Below are positions 4,642-63,259 of a DNA stretch of 64,000 nucleotides, piece after piece. The stretch is from Acidobacteriota bacterium. Its GTDB lineage: Bacteria; Acidobacteriota; Holophagae; Holophagales; Holophagaceae. Positions within the stretch are counted from its first letter, which is position 1, and each line of letters begins with the position of its first letter. The notes below the pieces were generated by a model that saw only the letters and a program-made list of their open reading frames with translations, ran no database searches and had not been told where the DNA came from. The stretch covers positions 186,001-250,000 of the forward strand of contig JACPUT010000006.1 in the NCBI GenBank assembly GCA_016192145.1, written 5' to 3'. Position numbers and translations under genes: made by a program.

Positions 4642-6168
4642 ATGCAGGATAACCAGTACCGTGCGATCCGCCTTGAGAAGCTCGAGAAGCTGAAGGCCCT
4701 GGGCGTCGATCCCTATCCTGCCAAAGCCCACGTCACCACCCGCATCGAGGAGCTGGTGGCCGCCCACGCCGATACGACCGGCGAAGCCTTCGAAGCCCAG
4801 CCCGTGAAGGCCGCCGTCATGGGCCGCCTCACCGCCTACCGGGACAGCGGGAAGACCTGCTTCCTCAACCTCTCCGAGAACGGCGGCAAGCTGCAGGTGT
4901 ACCTGCGCAAGGACGGCCTCTCCGAGACCGATTGGGCCGTGGTGGGGCTCCTGGATCTGGGCGATTTCATCGCCGTCTCCGGCACCATGATGCGCACCCG
5001 CACCGGCGAGCTCACGCTCAAGGCCGAATCCGTGCAGTTCCTCACCAAGGCCCTGCTGCCCTTGCCGGAGAAGTGGCACGGCCTGCAGGACAAGGAGCAG
5101 CGCTACCGCCAGCGGTACCTGGATCTCATCTCCAACCCCGACGTGCTCACCACCATGCGCCAGCGCAGCCGCATGCTCTCCGCCGTGCGTCGCTTCATGG
5201 AAGGCCGGAACTTCCTGGAAGTGGAAACCCCCATGATGCAGCCCATTCCAGGCGGTGCCACGGCGCGGCCCTTCGTGACCCACCACAACGCCCTCGACAT
5301 GCCCCTCTACCTCCGCATCGCGCCGGAGCTGTACCTCAAGCGCCTCATCGTGGGCGGCTTCGAGAAGGTGTTCGAGATCAACCGCAACTTCCGCAATGAG
5401 GGCCTCAGCGTCCGCCACAACCCGGAATTCACGATGATGGAGAGCTACGCCGCCGGCGAGGACCTCCGCGACGTGATGGCCATGGTGGAGGACCTCTTCC
5501 ACATGGTGGCCACGGAAGTCTTCGGCGCCGAATCCCTGCCCTGGGGGGTGGACGAGGCCGGGGAGCCCAGGCTCATCAGTTACGCGAAGCCCTTCCGCCG
5601 CCTCACCATGCGGGATGCCATCGCCGAATTCGGCCACATCGACCGCGCCAAGCTGGAGGACCCCGCGGAGATCCGCAAGGTGGCCCAGGGCGCCCATCTG
5701 GAGGATACGAGCCGCAAGAGCCCCGGCGCCCTCATCGGCGAACTCTTCGAGCACTACGCCGAGAAGCAGCTCTGGCACCCCACCTTCATCACCGAACACC
5801 CCGTGGAGATGTCCCCGCTGACCAAGAGCCTGCCCGACGTGCCCGGCTACGTGGATCGCTTTGAGCTTTTCGTGGGCGGCATGGAGCTGGCCAACGCCTA
5901 CTCCGAACTCAACGATCCCATCGTGCAGTTGGAGCGCTTCCTGGATCAGGCCAAGGAGCGGGAGGGCGGCAACGACGAGGCCATGCACTTGGACGAGGAC
6001 TTCATCACCTCCCTGGAGCACGGCTTCCCCCCCAGTGGCGGCCTGGGCGTGGGTATGGATCGCATGGCCATGCTCATGACCAACAGCCCCAGCATCCGGG
6101 ACGTGGTGTTGTTCCCCCTCATGCGGCCCCTCAAAGTCGCCGAGGGAACGGAGGACGCCGAGGGCTGA
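4642..6168 (+). CDS. lysS: Lysyl-tRNA synthetase, class II
   Basis: Charges tRNA-Lys with lysine using ATP. The 508 residues match the family. The N-terminal anticodon-binding OB domain (about residues 55-165, with GRLTAYRDSGKTCFLNL) precedes the class II core: motif 1 around FLEVETPMMQPIPGGATARPF, motif 2 EVFEINRNFRNEGLSVRHNPEFTM (shown in part as FRNEGLSVRHNPEF), and motif 3 GLGVGMDRMAMLM. The ATG at 4642 has GGAG seven bases upstream; a TTG four codons earlier is less likely. It is followed by a repeat-armed hairpin and a convergent PilZ gene. Confidence 0.97.
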   Translation: MQDNQYRAIRLEKLEKLKALGVDPYPAKAHVTTRIEELVAAHADTTGEAFEAQPVKAAVMGRLTAYRDSGKTCFLNLSENGGKLQVYLRKDGLSETDWAVVGLLDLGDFIAVSGTMMRTRTGELTLKAESVQFLTKALLPLPEKWHGLQDKEQRYRQRYLDLISNPDVLTTMRQRSRMLSAVRRFMEGRNFLEVETPMMQPIPGGATARPFVTHHNALDMPLYLRIAPELYLKRLIVGGFEKVFEINRNFRNEGLSVRHNPEFTMMESYAAGEDLRDVMAMVEDLFHMVATEVFGAESLPWGVDEAGEPRLISYAKPFRRLTMRDAIAEFGHIDRAKLEDPAEIRKVAQGAHLEDTSRKSPGALIGELFEHYAEKQLWHPTFITEHPVEMSPLTKSLPDVPGYVDRFELFVGGMELANAYSELNDPIVQLERFLDQAKEREGGNDEAMHLDEDFITSLEHGFPPSGGLGVGMDRMAMLMTNSPSIRDVVLFPLMRPLKVAEGTEDAEG

Positions 6169-6176
6169 GGACTCGG

Positions 6177-6271
6177 GTCCTTAGTCCTTAGTCCTTGGTC
6201 CTTGGCTGAGTTCGACCCATGCCGAGAGCGTCGAATGGGTCGGGGTCAGCCAAGGACCAAGGACCAAGGAC
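6177..6271. repeat. Tandem-repeat-armed hairpin A (7-mer unit)
   Basis: The left arm (6177-6209) is successive copies of a 7-mer, GTCCTTA or GTCCTTG, ending GGCTGA. The right arm (6246-6271) is the reverse complement, starting TCAGCCAAGGACC. The inner 26 bp pair with one mismatch. The loop holds a second perfect hairpin, CGACCCAT (6213-6220) with ATGGGTCG (6235-6242). It lies between the convergent lysS and PilZ genes and could end transcription of both, although no T run follows the stem. Confidence 0.8.
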
Positions 6272-6284
6272 GAATTCCCAAGGA

Positions 6285-8173: not shown

Positions 8174-9805
<1,632 letters not shown>

Positions 9806-9817
9806 AATCCCACCACT

Positions 9818-9887
9818 AAGGCACGAAAAGGGAACAAGGCCACGAAGAGAACTCTTCCTTCGTGGCCTTCCGCTTTTTTCGTGCCTT
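9818..9887. repeat. Tandem-repeat-armed hairpin B
   Basis: Each arm has two diverged copies of a 17-18-mer beginning AAGGC(C)ACGAA (left, 9818 onward). The right arm, ending CTTTTTTCGTGCCTT at 9887, is nearly the exact reverse complement, so the element folds into one long stem of about 33 bp. It lies 12 bases after the ALDH stop and includes a T run, so it can terminate transcription. Confidence 0.8.
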
Positions 9888-9961
9888 CGGGGTGATGTTT
9901 TCGGATTACTTTGTCTGAGCCATCGTTTGAGATACTGGCCTTACCGAATTCGAGGCATCCC

Positions 9962-28382: not shown

Positions 28383-28395
28383 GATTTTAAAGGCC

Positions 28396-28471
28396 AACCG
28401 GTGATGAACAGTGATGAACGGTGATGGTGTGTCGAGGTGCCATCACCGTTCATCACTGTTCATCACTGGTT
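28396..28471. repeat. Tandem-repeat-armed hairpin C (GTGATGAAC unit)
   Basis: The left arm (28396-28426) has three copies of a 10-mer GTGATGAACA or GTGATGAACG (the last partial), preceded by AACCG. The right arm (28441-28471) is its reverse complement with one mismatch, giving a 31-bp stem and a 14-base loop. A T-rich stretch follows on the plus strand. It lies between the convergent SDR and bioA genes. The same unit occurs at 63135-63204. Confidence 0.85.
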
Positions 28472-28509
28472 TTCTTTTTCATTAATGGCTGGCGACTTCT
28501 TTCGGGGCG

Positions 28510-36599: not shown

Positions 36600-36604
36600 G
36601 CGTT

Positions 36605-36729
36605 GAGGCTGGAGACTGGAGGCCAGAGGCTGGAAATGGCACGGGCGCCCCTGGGGCGCCCGTGTTGATCCAGGCGCGGCCCGGAGGGCCGCCTCCAATT
36701 TGGCCCCCAGTCTCCGGTCTCCAGCCTCA
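36605..36729. repeat. Tandem-repeat-armed hairpin D (GGCTGGAGACTGGAG unit)
   Basis: The left arm (36605-36633) is built of GAGGCTGGAGACTGGAGGC and a partial second copy. The right arm (about 36706-36729) carries the reverse complement (CTCCGGTCTCCAGCCTC). Between the arms are two perfect hairpins: CACGGGCGCCCC/GGGGCGCCCGTG (36640-36664) and GCGGCCC/GGGCCGC (36676-36692). It sits between two convergent genes. A related unit occurs at 59145-59186. Confidence 0.75.
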
Positions 36730-40462: not shown

Positions 40463-40470
40463 ACGGTTGT

Positions 40471-40586
40471 GGGCTGTGGGCTCTAGCTGATTCCGCCTGC
40501 GCCTGAGGGGACGGCTGGGTCGGCGCAAGCTAGAGCCCAGAGCCTATAGCCCAACGCCCAAAGCCCAAAGCCCAAAGCCCAAAGCC
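40471..40586. repeat. Tandem-repeat-armed hairpin E (GCCCAAA unit)
   Basis: TGGGCTCTAGCT (40477-40488) pairs perfectly with AGCTAGAGCCCA (40528-40539). TGCGCC/GGCGCA (40498-40503 with 40522-40527) nests directly inside. The right side continues into AGAGCCTATAGCCC and then 4.4 exact copies of the 7-mer GCCCAAA (40556-40586). The left side has only two GGGCT copies, so the right arm is expanded. It lies between two convergent genes, five bases from the stop of the 40592 gene. Confidence 0.75.
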
Positions 40587-59225: not shown

Positions 59226-60701
59226 ATGACCCGCCCCGTCGTCACCCGCTTCGCCCCCTCGCCCACTGGCATGCTCCACATCGGGGGCGTGCGCACGGCC
59301 CTGTTCTGCTGGCTCTTCGCTAAGAAGCATGGCGGCCGCTTCATCCTGCGCATCGAGGACACGGACCTCAGCCGCAGCACCGACGACAACATCCGCATCA
59401 TCGAAGAGGGCATGGCCTGGTGCGGCCTCGAGTGGGATGAGGGGCCGGTGGTCGGAGACCCCTCGAAGTGGGTGGGACCCCATGGCCCCTACCGTCAGAT
59501 GCAGCGCATGGACAGGTACCGCGCCAAGGTCCAGGAGCTGCTGGACCAGGACCTCGCCTACCGCTGCCGCTGCTCCCGGGAAGAGCTGGAGTCGCGCCGT
59601 TCCGCCGTGGAGGCCGCCGGCAAGGTGTTCCAGTACAACCGGGGCCTGGACGCCGGCAAGGGCTGCGCCGCCAAGCACCATGACGCCTCGGAATCCGCCG
59701 CCATCCGTTTCCGCATGCCCGAGGGCGGCGATATCGTCCTCCACGACCTCATCAAGGGCGAGATCCGCTTCCCCGCGGACAGCCTCGACGACTGGATCAT
59801 CGCTCGCTCCTCGGAGACTCCCGGCGAGATCGGCGTGCCCACCTACAACTTCTGCGTGGTGGTGGATGACACCCACATGGAGGTGAGCCACGTCATCCGG
59901 GGCGACGACCACGTGAACAACACGCCCAAGCAGATCCCCCTCTTCGCCGCCTTCGGCTTTCCGCTGCCCGCCTTCGCCCACGTGCCCATGATCCTCGGCA
60001 AGGATGGCGCGAAGCTCAGCAAGCGCCACGGCGCCACCAGCATCACCGAGTACCAGGCCATGGGCTTCCTGCCTTCCGCCGTGCGCCTCGCCCTGGCCCG
60101 CCTCTCCTGGACGCCCAAGCAGGATGGCAAGGCCGCGGAGACCGCCGAGGAGGAGATCCTCACGGACGCCGACATGATCCGCCTCTTCGACCTGGCCGAC
60201 GTGCAGAAAAGCGCCGCCCGCTTCGACATGGACAAGCTCTCATGGATGAACCAGAAGCTGATTCAGCGAGCTTCATGGCGCGAGTTGGAGCACCACCTCA
60301 GGCCCTTCGTGCCTGAGGTGGTGTGGGATGAAAAGAGCGATGAGTGGAAGGCCACGGCCATCACCGCCACCCAGAAGGGCAAGAGCCTCGTGGAGATGGC
60401 GGAGTCCCTCCGCTTCGCCTTCGAACGCCCCGAGACCTTCGATGAGGCCGCCGCCGCCAAGTTCATCACCGATGCCGTGAAGCCCGCCCTGCGGGAGGTC
60501 CTCGCCCTCGAGGACTATTCCCACGACGCCCTCAAGGCCGCCTTCGACGGGATCATGGAAAGACACGGCCTCAAGCTCAAGGACGTGGCCCAGGCCCTGC
60601 GCGTGGCCCTCTGTGGCAGGCCCGTGAGCCCCATGATCTTCGAGACGATGTACCTCGTCGGCCGCGACGAAGTTCGCACGCGCGTGGAGAAGTGGCTGTG
60701 A
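59226..60701 (+). CDS. gltX: Glutamyl-tRNA synthetase
   Basis: Class I synthetase charging tRNA-Glu. It is 491 residues with RFAPSPTGMLHIGGVRTALF (HIGH motif), FILRIEDTDLSRS, the Cys-containing insert YRCRCSREELE, HVIRGDDHVNNTPKQ, and GKDGAKLSKRHGATSI (KMSKS region KLSKRHG). The C-terminal anticodon-binding half is complete. ATG codons at 59220 and 59226 are both possible. A separate glnS lies 0.7 kb downstream, so this enzyme need not misacylate tRNA-Gln, although gatCAB is outside the view. Confidence 0.95.
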   Translation: MTRPVVTRFAPSPTGMLHIGGVRTALFCWLFAKKHGGRFILRIEDTDLSRSTDDNIRIIEEGMAWCGLEWDEGPVVGDPSKWVGPHGPYRQMQRMDRYRAKVQELLDQDLAYRCRCSREELESRRSAVEAAGKVFQYNRGLDAGKGCAAKHHDASESAAIRFRMPEGGDIVLHDLIKGEIRFPADSLDDWIIARSSETPGEIGVPTYNFCVVVDDTHMEVSHVIRGDDHVNNTPKQIPLFAAFGFPLPAFAHVPMILGKDGAKLSKRHGATSITEYQAMGFLPSAVRLALARLSWTPKQDGKAAETAEEEILTDADMIRLFDLADVQKSAARFDMDKLSWMNQKLIQRASWRELEHHLRPFVPEVVWDEKSDEWKATAITATQKGKSLVEMAESLRFAFERPETFDEAAAAKFITDAVKPALREVLALEDYSHDALKAAFDGIMERHGLKLKDVAQALRVALCGRPVSPMIFETMYLVGRDEVRTRVEKWL

Positions 60702-61045
60702 TGAACCTCGAGGAATTCACCCACATCACCCTCACGGTGGTGGAGGAGCAGAAGGATGAGTCCTATGCCCCGACGCTGATCGTGGGCGATGAGGTGCGCA
60801 TCATCAACGGCATCCCCGAGGGCCTGGACCACCGCTTGGCCATCCAGGATGTGGTCCGCCGCTTGGGCCTTGGGGATTACGAATTCCTCTTCGGCGTCCG
60901 CACGGGCCCCCACGAAGTCACCACGGGCCACCACACGCCTTTGGGCATCCAGATCCAGCGCATCACGGAGTTGGGGAAGGGGTACTCGATCTCGGAGGTC
61001 GAGGAATGCCCTTGGTGGGACCTGCATGTGGGCGGAGATCAGTAA
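60701..61045 (+). CDS. Hypothetical protein coupled to gltX
   Basis: A 114-residue acidic protein whose ATG overlaps the gltX stop (TGATG). It starts MNLEEFTHITLTVVEEQKDE and continues with strand/helix alternation (YAPTLIVGDEVRIINGIPEG, HRLAIQDVVRRLGLGDYEFL) and a His/Thr segment (TGPHEVTTGHHTPLG). No signal or membrane segment. I do not recognise it. Coupling suggests it is expressed with gltX. Confidence 0.6.
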   Translation: MNLEEFTHITLTVVEEQKDESYAPTLIVGDEVRIINGIPEGLDHRLAIQDVVRRLGLGDYEFLFGVRTGPHEVTTGHHTPLGIQIQRITELGKGYSISEVEECPWWDLHVGGDQ

Positions 61046-61051
61046 TTCGCC

Positions 61052-61165
61052 ATGAGCCTTCCCTTCGAGGAACTGACCAACCGGGTGTTGGAGGCGGCCT
61101 ACCAAGTCAGCAACGAACTTGGCATCGGGTTCCTCGAGTCGGTGTCGGTTCGACAACCGGTTTGA
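61052..61165 (+). pseudogene. Truncated GxxExxY-family gene
   Basis: A 37-codon frame reading MSLPFEELTNRVLEAAYQVS then NELGIGFLESV, the conserved N terminus of GxxExxY proteins (TIGR04256-type, normally about 120-130 residues, 'G.GFLESVYE'). Right after LESV the homology stops (SVRQPV, stop at 61165), and six bases later the repeat-armed hairpin at 61171 begins. The gene seems to have been cut there. The ATG follows the previous stop by six bases. Confidence 0.75.
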
Positions 61166-61170
61166 ATGAA

Positions 61171-61393
61171 TTAACAGGGATGAAGGGGATGAAGGGGATG
61201 GGTTTCCGGGATGCCGCGCCGACCCACTCTAGGGCCTGGGGAAGGGCTCAGCGGGCGGCCCAGGGCGCCTTCCAAGGGCGCCTCAGGCCGCCCGCTGAAC
61301 CGCCGTCGCTCTGCGACGGCGCCGCGCCAGGCGCGGCCCCAGGCCCTGGCCGTACCCTGCTTTTATCCCCTTCATCCCCTTCATCCCTGTTAA
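61171..61393. repeat. Tandem-repeat-armed element G, cloverleaf-like
   Basis: The outer arms are perfect 29-bp reverse complements: 61171-61199 (TTAACAGGGATGAAGGGGAT, then further GATGAAGGG units) and 61365-61393. Inside, AGGGCCTGGGG (61231-61241) pairs with CCCCAGGCCCT (61337-61347). That stem encloses three hairpins: TCAGCGGGCGGCC/GGCCGCCCGCTGA (61248-61260 with 61286-61298), CGCCGTCGC/GCGACGGCG (61301-61309 with 61313-61321) and CCGCGC/GCGCGG (61322-61327 with 61331-61336). The whole folds as a four-way junction on a long repeat stem. No protein is encoded inside. It separates the broken GxxExxY gene from glnS. Confidence 0.85.
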
Positions 61394-61414: not shown

Positions 61415-63106
61415 ATGTCCGACGCCGAATCCAAGTCCCTGAACTTCCTCGAGGAAATCGTCGAGGGGGACCTCCAGTCCGGCAAGCACGGCGGGCGGGT
61501 GCTCACGCGGTTTCCCCCGGAGCCCAACGGCTACCTGCATATCGGCCACGCCAAGAGCATCTGCCTCAACTTCGGCCTTGGCCTGAAGTACGGCGGCGGC
61601 ACCAACCTGCGCTTCGACGATACGAACCCCACCAAGGAGGAGCAGGAGTACGTGGATTCCATCGAGGCCGACGTGCACTGGCTCGGATTTGAATGGAAGG
61701 CCCGCTACTTCGCCTCCGACTACTTCCAGAAGCTCTACGACTTCGCCGAATACCTCATCACCCAGGGCAAGGCCTATGTCTGCGACCTCACGGACGAGCA
61801 GACCCGGGAGTACCGCGGCAACTTCCACACCCCGGGGAAGCCGAGCCCCTTTCGGGATCGCAGCGTGGCGGAGAACCTGGATCTCTTCCACCGCATGAAG
61901 GCCGGTGAGTTCGCCGATGGCACCCGCGTGCTGCGCGCCAAGATCGACGTGAACGCCGGGAACATGAACCTGCGCGATCCGCTCATGTACCGCATCCGCC
62001 ACGCCCATCACCACCGCACGGGCGATGCCTGGTGCATCTACCCCATGTACGACTTCGCCCACCCCGTGAGCGACGCCATCGAGGGCATCACGCACTCCAT
62101 CTGCACCCTGGAATTCGAGGACCACAAACCCCTCTACGACTGGTTCCTGGAGCAGGATGTCGAGGCCAAGTTCTTCCAGAAGCCCCTGCCGCGCCAGTAC
62201 GAGTTCGCCCGCCTCAACGTCACCACCACCATGATGAGCAAGCGGCGCCTGCTGCTCCTCGTGGAGGAAGGCCACGTGACGGGCTGGGATGATCCCCGCA
62301 TGCCCACCCTCTCCGGCCTGCGCCGCCGCGGCGTCACCCCCGAGGCCGTGCGCGCCTTCGCGGAGCGCGTGGGCGTGGCCCGGCGCGACGCCACCGTGGA
62401 CATGGGCCTGCTGGACCTCAGCATCCGCGAGGATCTCGAGGCTCGCTGCGACCGCCGCATGGCCGTGATCCGCCCGTTGAAGGTCACGGTGACGAATCTC
62501 GCCGAGGGCGAAATTCACTGGATCGAGCTGCCCAACCATCCCGATGCCGGCCGCGGCACCCGCAAGGTGCCCTTCGGCCGCGAGCTGTACGTCGACCGCG
62601 AGGACTTCATGGAGGTCCCCGCCAAGAAGTGGTTCCGCCTGGCCCCGGGTGCCGAGGTGCGACTCCGCGGTGCCTGCTACCTCCGCTGCGAGAAGGTGGT
62701 GAAGGATGCGTCGGGCGAGGTCGTCGAGCTCCGCTGCACCTGGGACCCCGCCACCCTGGGGGGCGAGGCCCCCGACGGCCGCAAGGTGAAGGGCACCCTC
62801 CACTGGGTGAGCGCCACTCACGCCGTGCGTGCCGAAGTGCGCCTCTACGATCGCCTCTTCACCGTGGACGATCCCATGGATGTGCCCGAAGGCGGCGACT
62901 GGCGGGGAACCCTGAACCCGGCCTCACTGGACGTGGTGCAGGCCGCCCTGGAACCCAGCCTCGGCGAGGCCAAGGCGGGCGAGCGCTTCCAGTTCGAGCG
63001 CACGGGCTACTTCGCCGTGGATGCCGATTCGAAGCCGGGGGCCTTGGTGTTCAACCGCACCGTGGGGCTCAAGGACAGTTGGGCCAAGGTGGAAGCCAAG
63101 GCCTGA
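61415..63106 (+). CDS. glnS: Glutaminyl-tRNA synthetase
   Basis: Class I synthetase charging tRNA-Gln directly. The 563 residues match the enzyme. Motifs: RFPPEPNGYLHIGHAKSICL (HIGH), LRFDDTNPTKEEQEYVDSIE, MYDFAHPVSDAIEGITHSIC, VTTTMMSKRRLLLLV (KMSKS form MMSKR) and the two C-terminal beta-barrel domains (KVPFGRELYVDREDF). The ATG at 61415 has only a weak ribosome-binding site, and the element G right arm lies 21 bases upstream, so its structure may affect translation. GlnRS is scattered in bacteria. Confidence 0.96.
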   Translation: MSDAESKSLNFLEEIVEGDLQSGKHGGRVLTRFPPEPNGYLHIGHAKSICLNFGLGLKYGGGTNLRFDDTNPTKEEQEYVDSIEADVHWLGFEWKARYFASDYFQKLYDFAEYLITQGKAYVCDLTDEQTREYRGNFHTPGKPSPFRDRSVAENLDLFHRMKAGEFADGTRVLRAKIDVNAGNMNLRDPLMYRIRHAHHHRTGDAWCIYPMYDFAHPVSDAIEGITHSICTLEFEDHKPLYDWFLEQDVEAKFFQKPLPRQYEFARLNVTTTMMSKRRLLLLVEEGHVTGWDDPRMPTLSGLRRRGVTPEAVRAFAERVGVARRDATVDMGLLDLSIREDLEARCDRRMAVIRPLKVTVTNLAEGEIHWIELPNHPDAGRGTRKVPFGRELYVDREDFMEVPAKKWFRLAPGAEVRLRGACYLRCEKVVKDASGEVVELRCTWDPATLGGEAPDGRKVKGTLHWVSATHAVRAEVRLYDRLFTVDDPMDVPEGGDWRGTLNPASLDVVQAALEPSLGEAKAGERFQFERTGYFAVDADSKPGALVFNRTVGLKDSWAKVEAKA

Positions 63107-63134
63107 TCCTGCTGCCTTCGAACCGAAAATACTT

Positions 63135-63214
63135 AACCAGTGATGAACAGTGATGGGCCTCGGAATGCCGGCTTTTATCACCGTTCATCACTGTTCATCA
63201 CCGGCTGATTTTTT
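63135..63214. repeat. Tandem-repeat-armed hairpin H (GTGATGAAC unit)
   Basis: The left arm (63135-63155) has two GTGATGAACA units after AACCA. The right side has three reverse-complement units (about 63176-63204), so it is longer. The core pair CATCACTGTTCATCAC (within 63186-63204) matches the left arm exactly, and seven T follow. The unit is the same as at 28396-28471. It lies between the convergent glnS and ERCC4 nuclease genes. Confidence 0.85.
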
Positions 63215-63259
63215 TCTTTGGCCAATCCCCGCTGCTTCTACCGTCCCACCTTCCACGGC

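Follow-up and report, generated by a model that had tools for sequence, protein, structure and literature searches.

The palindrome upstream of glnS in an Acidobacteriota genome is probably the remnant of a nuclease gene and its own repeats

What is a large, perfect palindrome doing directly in front of glnS? The window analyzed here, 64,000 nucleotides of a contig from an Acidobacteriota bacterium (G000; GCA_016192145.1, JACPUT010000006.1, positions 186,001 to 250,000), carries such an element (Table 1). Its outer arms are exact reverse complements over 29 bp, as the initial annotation reported, and they form the single perfect inverted repeat of that length with a reach of up to 300 bp in the window; in Markov shuffles, inverted repeats of even 12-14 bp seldom arise. 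The interior stem closing over three hairpins, also described there, was recovered by RNA folding at -171.6 kcal/mol, compared to -106.1 +/- 5.2 kcal/mol in dinucleotide shuffles (z = -12.7), along with an additional side hairpin. In the computed fold, the junction hairpins have stems of 13 + 9 bp (stacked), 8-9 bp and 7 bp. Between the right arm and the glnS ATG (61415) lie 21 bases, again in agreement with that annotation, and its suggestion of a four-way junction made by design, possibly a DNA cruciform, is supported in that the palindrome appears to be deliberate, conserved and able to extrude. The annotation overlooked that the arms are iterated repeats of an adjoining gene remnant.

Table 1. 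Coordinates of the palindrome, its neighbors and related repeats (positions in the window unless another contig is named)
Feature	Position	Strand	Description or basis
Upstream ORF, function not assigned	60692..61045	+	also 5' of glnS in G011, G014, G019
5' remnant of GxxExxY (PF13366/TIGR04256) gene, MSLPFEELTNRVLEAAYQVSNELGIGFLESV	61052..61144	+	profile matches
3' remnant, RFDNRFE-stop	61146..61169	+	sequence reading and alignment to the intact G001 and G011 genes
Left arm	61171..61199	+	TTAAC plus iterons AGGGATGAA/GGGGATGAA/GGGGAT; exact reverse complement of right arm
GC-rich hairpin loop, 165 nt	61200..61364	.	folds, second copy, conserved stem columns
Side hairpin within loop	61200-61226		
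Four-way junction, closing stem	61229-61241/61337-61348		about 11-12 bp
Three junction hairpins	about 61245-61301, 61301-61321, 61320-61337		
Right arm, inverted copy of left arm	61365..61393	-	reverse-complement identity
glnS, host gene 3' of palindrome	61415..63106	+	TIGR00440, 689 bits
Gene-free GTGATGAACA hairpin	63125..63216	.	just past glnS stop
Second gene-free GTGATGAACA hairpin	28389..28478	.	
Further iterated palindrome	6181-6274		unit AGTCCTTGGTCCTTGG
Further iterated palindrome	9804-9901		unit CACGAAGGC..
Further iterated palindrome	36604-36729		unit CTGGAGACTGGAG
Further iterated palindrome	40465-40551		unit GGGCTGTGGGCT
Intact GxxExxY gene	G011:C26		iteron AGGGATGAAG

The palindrome begins one base past the stop codon of this remnant, which belongs to the GxxExxY family (TIGR04256 / PF13366), as do five intact genes elsewhere in the genome. 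Its 5' part matches Pfam PF13366 at 22.0 bits, a score equal to the cut-off, and TIGR04256 at 21.1 bits, below the cut-off. The two halves meet at a GTCGGT/GTCGGT junction, where an internal deletion with a frameshift has removed the middle of the protein. The order of genes at this locus, gltX-ORF-[unit]-glnS, is conserved, and what occupies the unit position varies. An intact GxxExxY gene, with a short-loop hairpin of the same arms behind it, is present in G001, a member of the same genus, and in G011; G019 has the hairpin but no gene, G014 has neither, and the genome studied here has a deleted gene and an enlarged hairpin. Among the glnS loci of the family that were read, the arms are present at just four, each of which has or had a GxxExxY gene, or has the hairpin alone; other family members, complete genomes among them, have no palindrome at this place. 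From the comparison of these orthologous loci we conclude that the cloverleaf arose within the loop of a GxxExxY unit's 3' hairpin, by insertion or by expansion of that loop.

A second full copy of the cloverleaf, the sole other one in this genome, lies 36 kb away beside a serine/threonine-kinase-like gene (G000:C7:283295-283517) and is 89% identical, interior included. The two copies have the same ends in unrelated contexts. Because the hairpin together with its insert occurs at a second genomic place, it probably moved or was copied as one unit. Nine of the 25 differences between the copies fall in paired columns, compared to about 20 expected (hypergeometric p = 4e-7). Three of the changed pairs are still standard in the second copy and six are broken. 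The initial annotation named uncompensated stem breaks in homologues as an outcome that would refute the structure; in part this outcome does occur, with breaks at two outer-arm pairs, one of them at the arm's very end, and at a few others, while the core stems are intact. There are no compensatory double changes. The cloverleaf is thus a real and conserved structure for which the covariation evidence is modest, since the genome has just two copies. Several further hairpins in this genome share the arms of the glnS palindrome and differ from it in their interiors. TTAA stands at both ends of the window copy, and we dropped it as a candidate target duplication when it proved not to be retained in the second copy.

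The arrangement of a GxxExxY gene with inverted repeats is not peculiar to this locus. All five intact genes in this genome are bracketed by or lie beside inverted repeats of 9-10-nt iterons, and most have iterons of their own that differ from gene to gene. In a survey of 77 GxxExxY loci from many bacterial phyla and Methanosarcinales, inverted-repeat flanks were found at 53 of 77 loci with a score >=13 and at 48 of 77 with a score >=15; control regions shifted outward by 350 bp gave 1 of 69 and 0 of 69, and mismatched pairs of flanks gave rates of 12% and 8%, at the same two scores. The arms consist of 2-4 tandem iterons, as in AACCGCAGATGAACGCAGATGAACGCAGAT, ACCACGAAGGACACGAAGG and GACAGGATTAACAGGAT, and their outer end is frequently TTAAC, AACC or TAGCC. 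These data show a GxxExxY unit, a small PD-(D/E)XK nuclease gene that lies between inverted repeats or beside a hairpin, with 9-10-nt iterons particular to the gene, and the association of gene and repeat is well supported. The window has both components, a GxxExxY gene, truncated, and beside it a palindrome with iteron inverted repeats. Against the reading that we favor below, about 30% of the sampled genes show no inverted repeat, and plasmid-borne genes show one in 1 of 5 cases. GxxExxY was found on 8 of 72,556 plasmids, a near absence that is unlike most transposons and also counts against that reading; given this and the lack of any PADLOC or PHROGs match, we rejected phage, plasmid or defense cargo. 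Two of the plasmid genes lie co-directionally between their neighbors, fabD and fabG in Sphingomonas (L372) and radA and a gene for an FAD protein in Bacteroides (L370). At another locus (L276, G019:C249), the gene lies between direct repeats, each about 75 bp long, that contain a hairpin arm and the gene end.

The GxxExxY protein has about 125 amino acids, and its AlphaFold model adopts a PD-(D/E)XK fold (pLDDT 90.7); the catalytic E, D and E-x-K are invariant in the alignment used. The best Foldseek matches are DNA exonucleases (lambda and LHK-Exo) and SSO0001, a Cas4 nuclease; a Holliday-junction resolvase ranks lower, and a search by sequence gave no credible relative of solved structure. 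The closer two proteins are in identity, the more alike their iterons (Mantel rho 0.31, null sd 0.049). The correlation exceeds all permutations and persists after removal of GC content and control flanks (partial Mantel 0.32; null sd 0.047, null maximum 0.158) and in a broad set (0.35; null maximum 0.29). This co-variation supports the view that each nuclease may recognize its own iterons, as a duplex or as an extruded or single-stranded hairpin. By analogy with the RAYT transposases, which spread REPINs (PMC8049555), we infer that the nuclease would catalyze movement of the repeats, cutting at its own iterons so that hairpins are copied or spread. Alternatively, recognition could lead to hairpins being maintained. 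At the glnS locus, the gene lost its middle and left its 3' hairpin, whose loop carries the GC-rich four-way-junction insert.

Iterons without a gene are dispersed through several genomes. By pattern search, the window iteron has 9 copies in this genome, 40 in G001, 65 in G011 and 15 in G019, compared to 0-1 in most of the 60 genomes and 0 for the reversed-pattern control. Proteins at least 69% identical to the cognate GxxExxY protein occur solely in G001, G011 and G019, in addition to the remnant in this genome, so that a cognate gene is present, or once was, in four of the six genomes with >=9 copies, compared to 0 of the 54 others (Fisher p about 3e-5, uncorrected for kinship). Two genomes count against the nuclease-driven reading, as G013 and G031 contain 19-20 copies without a close cognate protein. 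Congeners differ: G011 has 65 copies and three congeners have 0; G031 has 20 and six congeners have 0. A second iteron, GTGATGAACA, has 143 matches in this genome, 0 in the control and <=28 in relatives. Its cognate gene is intact (G000:C4:130061-130399), and its copies form hairpins of a regular kind, each some 85 bp long; the window contains two. A protein in G003 is 70% identical to this cognate and is unaccompanied by GTGATGAACA iterons, which again counts against that reading. Gene-free hairpins lie dispersed, chiefly in genomes with a cognate gene, present or past, in either orientation and as inverted doublets with a variable spacer. G011 and G001 also contain inside-out hairpins, ATCCCCTTCATCCCTGTT-nAAAAGCTTTTn-AACAGGGATGAAGGGGAT, whose 14-nt center hardly varies (L261-L275, L280), and those of G011 frequently adjoin a GGTGGCGCGAAGCGCCCTC hairpin.

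A complete unit, gene and repeats, is precisely present or absent at one orthologous site upstream of dxr among seven congeners. G004 and G031 have the unit, and the other five have a 0-1-nt junction. G021, 97% identical to G004 in the dxr upstream flank, lacks the unit, and the more distant G031 has it, so that the pattern could reflect gain or loss. The protein at the G031 site (L220) carries E-x-R instead of the catalytic E-x-K, a sign of decay; the G004 motif is intact. Neither the dxr empty site nor the two cloverleaf copies show a clear target-site duplication. We did not count G006 as evidence for mobility, because the near-identical GxxExxY fragments there, more than 30 in number (L099-L118), are part of a larger repeated element in which an inverted-repeat-bracketed unit is carried along.

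The position of the palindrome, 21 bases from the glnS start and stably folded, invites the reading of the initial annotation that it is a regulatory RNA or attenuator of glnS. We rejected an attenuator or riboswitch and consider any such role very improbable, given that the palindrome is missing before glnS in most genomes of the family, that a copy lies beside an unrelated gene, and that Rfam covariance models gave zero matches across the whole window. Of greater weight, if still unlikely, is that the units are old and vertically inherited, their hairpins serving the host as 3'-end terminators or mRNA stabilizers, with the GxxExxY protein keeping or repairing palindromes without spreading them. 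Hairpins in the window lie close behind stop codons (about 13 nt past the stop at 6168 and 19 nt past glnS), and several have a T-rich right flank. Moreover, units in different genera share a site and their arms have changed together (L076 vs L096, L085 vs L095), which suggests a long vertical stay. Vertical residence is hard to square with the patchy copy numbers among congeners, the exact empty sites at dxr and the same-ended cloverleaf copies in unrelated contexts.

We find it improbable that the system acts on RNA, with the 5' and 3' arms of a GxxExxY transcript pairing and the protein processing its own mRNA. The arms do bracket the reading frame closely, and tRNA-splicing endonucleases are among the weaker Foldseek matches; the top structural matches, however, are to DNA exonucleases and SSO0001, and the gene-free hairpins are dispersed in both orientations. 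Least credible of all is that a RAYT (Y1) transposase moves these repeats as it does ordinary REPINs. The dispersed hairpin doublets resemble REPINs, but the iterons are tied to GxxExxY genes, and PF01797 has no match in G000, G001 or G019, whereas E. coli and other controls were positive. For this genome, which is 98% complete, the lack of a Y1 transposase contradicts RAYT-driven REPINs. We favor a system of gene and repeats that resembles REPIN-RAYT and is driven by an unrelated nuclease. Jointly with this nuclease-driven reading, we think it probable that the palindrome in the window is what remains of a GxxExxY unit, a dead copy whose loop has grown into a cloverleaf, and not a control element of glnS.

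The likeness to REPIN-RAYT systems (PMC8049555) lies in one gene with its own repeat type, in scattered non-autonomous hairpin doublets that are built from this repeat and vary in spacer, and perhaps in higher copy numbers in gene-bearing genomes, here with G013, G031 and the G003 protein as exceptions. The differences are the enzyme, an HUH Y1 transposase (PF01797) there and a PD-(D/E)XK nuclease (PF13366) here, the arms of 2-4 tandem 9-10-nt iterons, and the presence of several genes with different iterons in one genome. The GxxExxY system falls outside the REPIN-RAYT family because the defining Y1 transposase is missing. Like the MITEs of DNA transposons, the elements are short and non-coding, with terminal inverted repeats, a structured interior and several copies, and the dxr site shows the precise presence or absence that is typical of transposons; unlike them, they have no transposase with matching ends in sight and no clear target-site duplication, and their partner is a nuclease of about 125 amino acids. 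The multicopy nucleotide sequences of Geobacter (PMC2700814, PMC2996986) are also palindromic or tandem-repeat intergenic families with many members per genome and, in the parts of those papers drawn on here, are described without a linked gene. In the open literature, with preprints excluded and few subscription papers covered, we found no description of the function of the GxxExxY family or of its flanking iterons, and the widespread gene-repeat unit is apparently undescribed so far.

We consider the chances about even that GxxExxY nucleases and their gene-specific palindromes make up a class of minimal selfish or domesticated elements, present in both Bacteria and Archaea, whose PD-(D/E)XK enzyme recognizes and spreads its own palindromes as an independent counterpart of REPIN-RAYT. 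Many bacterial genomes contain families of short intergenic repeats, most of which lack an explanation. Tying a repeat type to a specific nuclease gene provides a testable function for both, and the target sequence of a GxxExxY protein could be read from the DNA adjoining its own gene. If the nuclease does spread palindromes, the REPIN-RAYT arrangement would have been invented independently with a different chemistry. The family would then supply sequence-specific nucleases whose targets are documented by their own loci, and it would explain many intergenic repeats, CGCAGATGAACGCAGAT, CACGAAGGACACGAAGG and AACAGGATGAACAGGATG among them.
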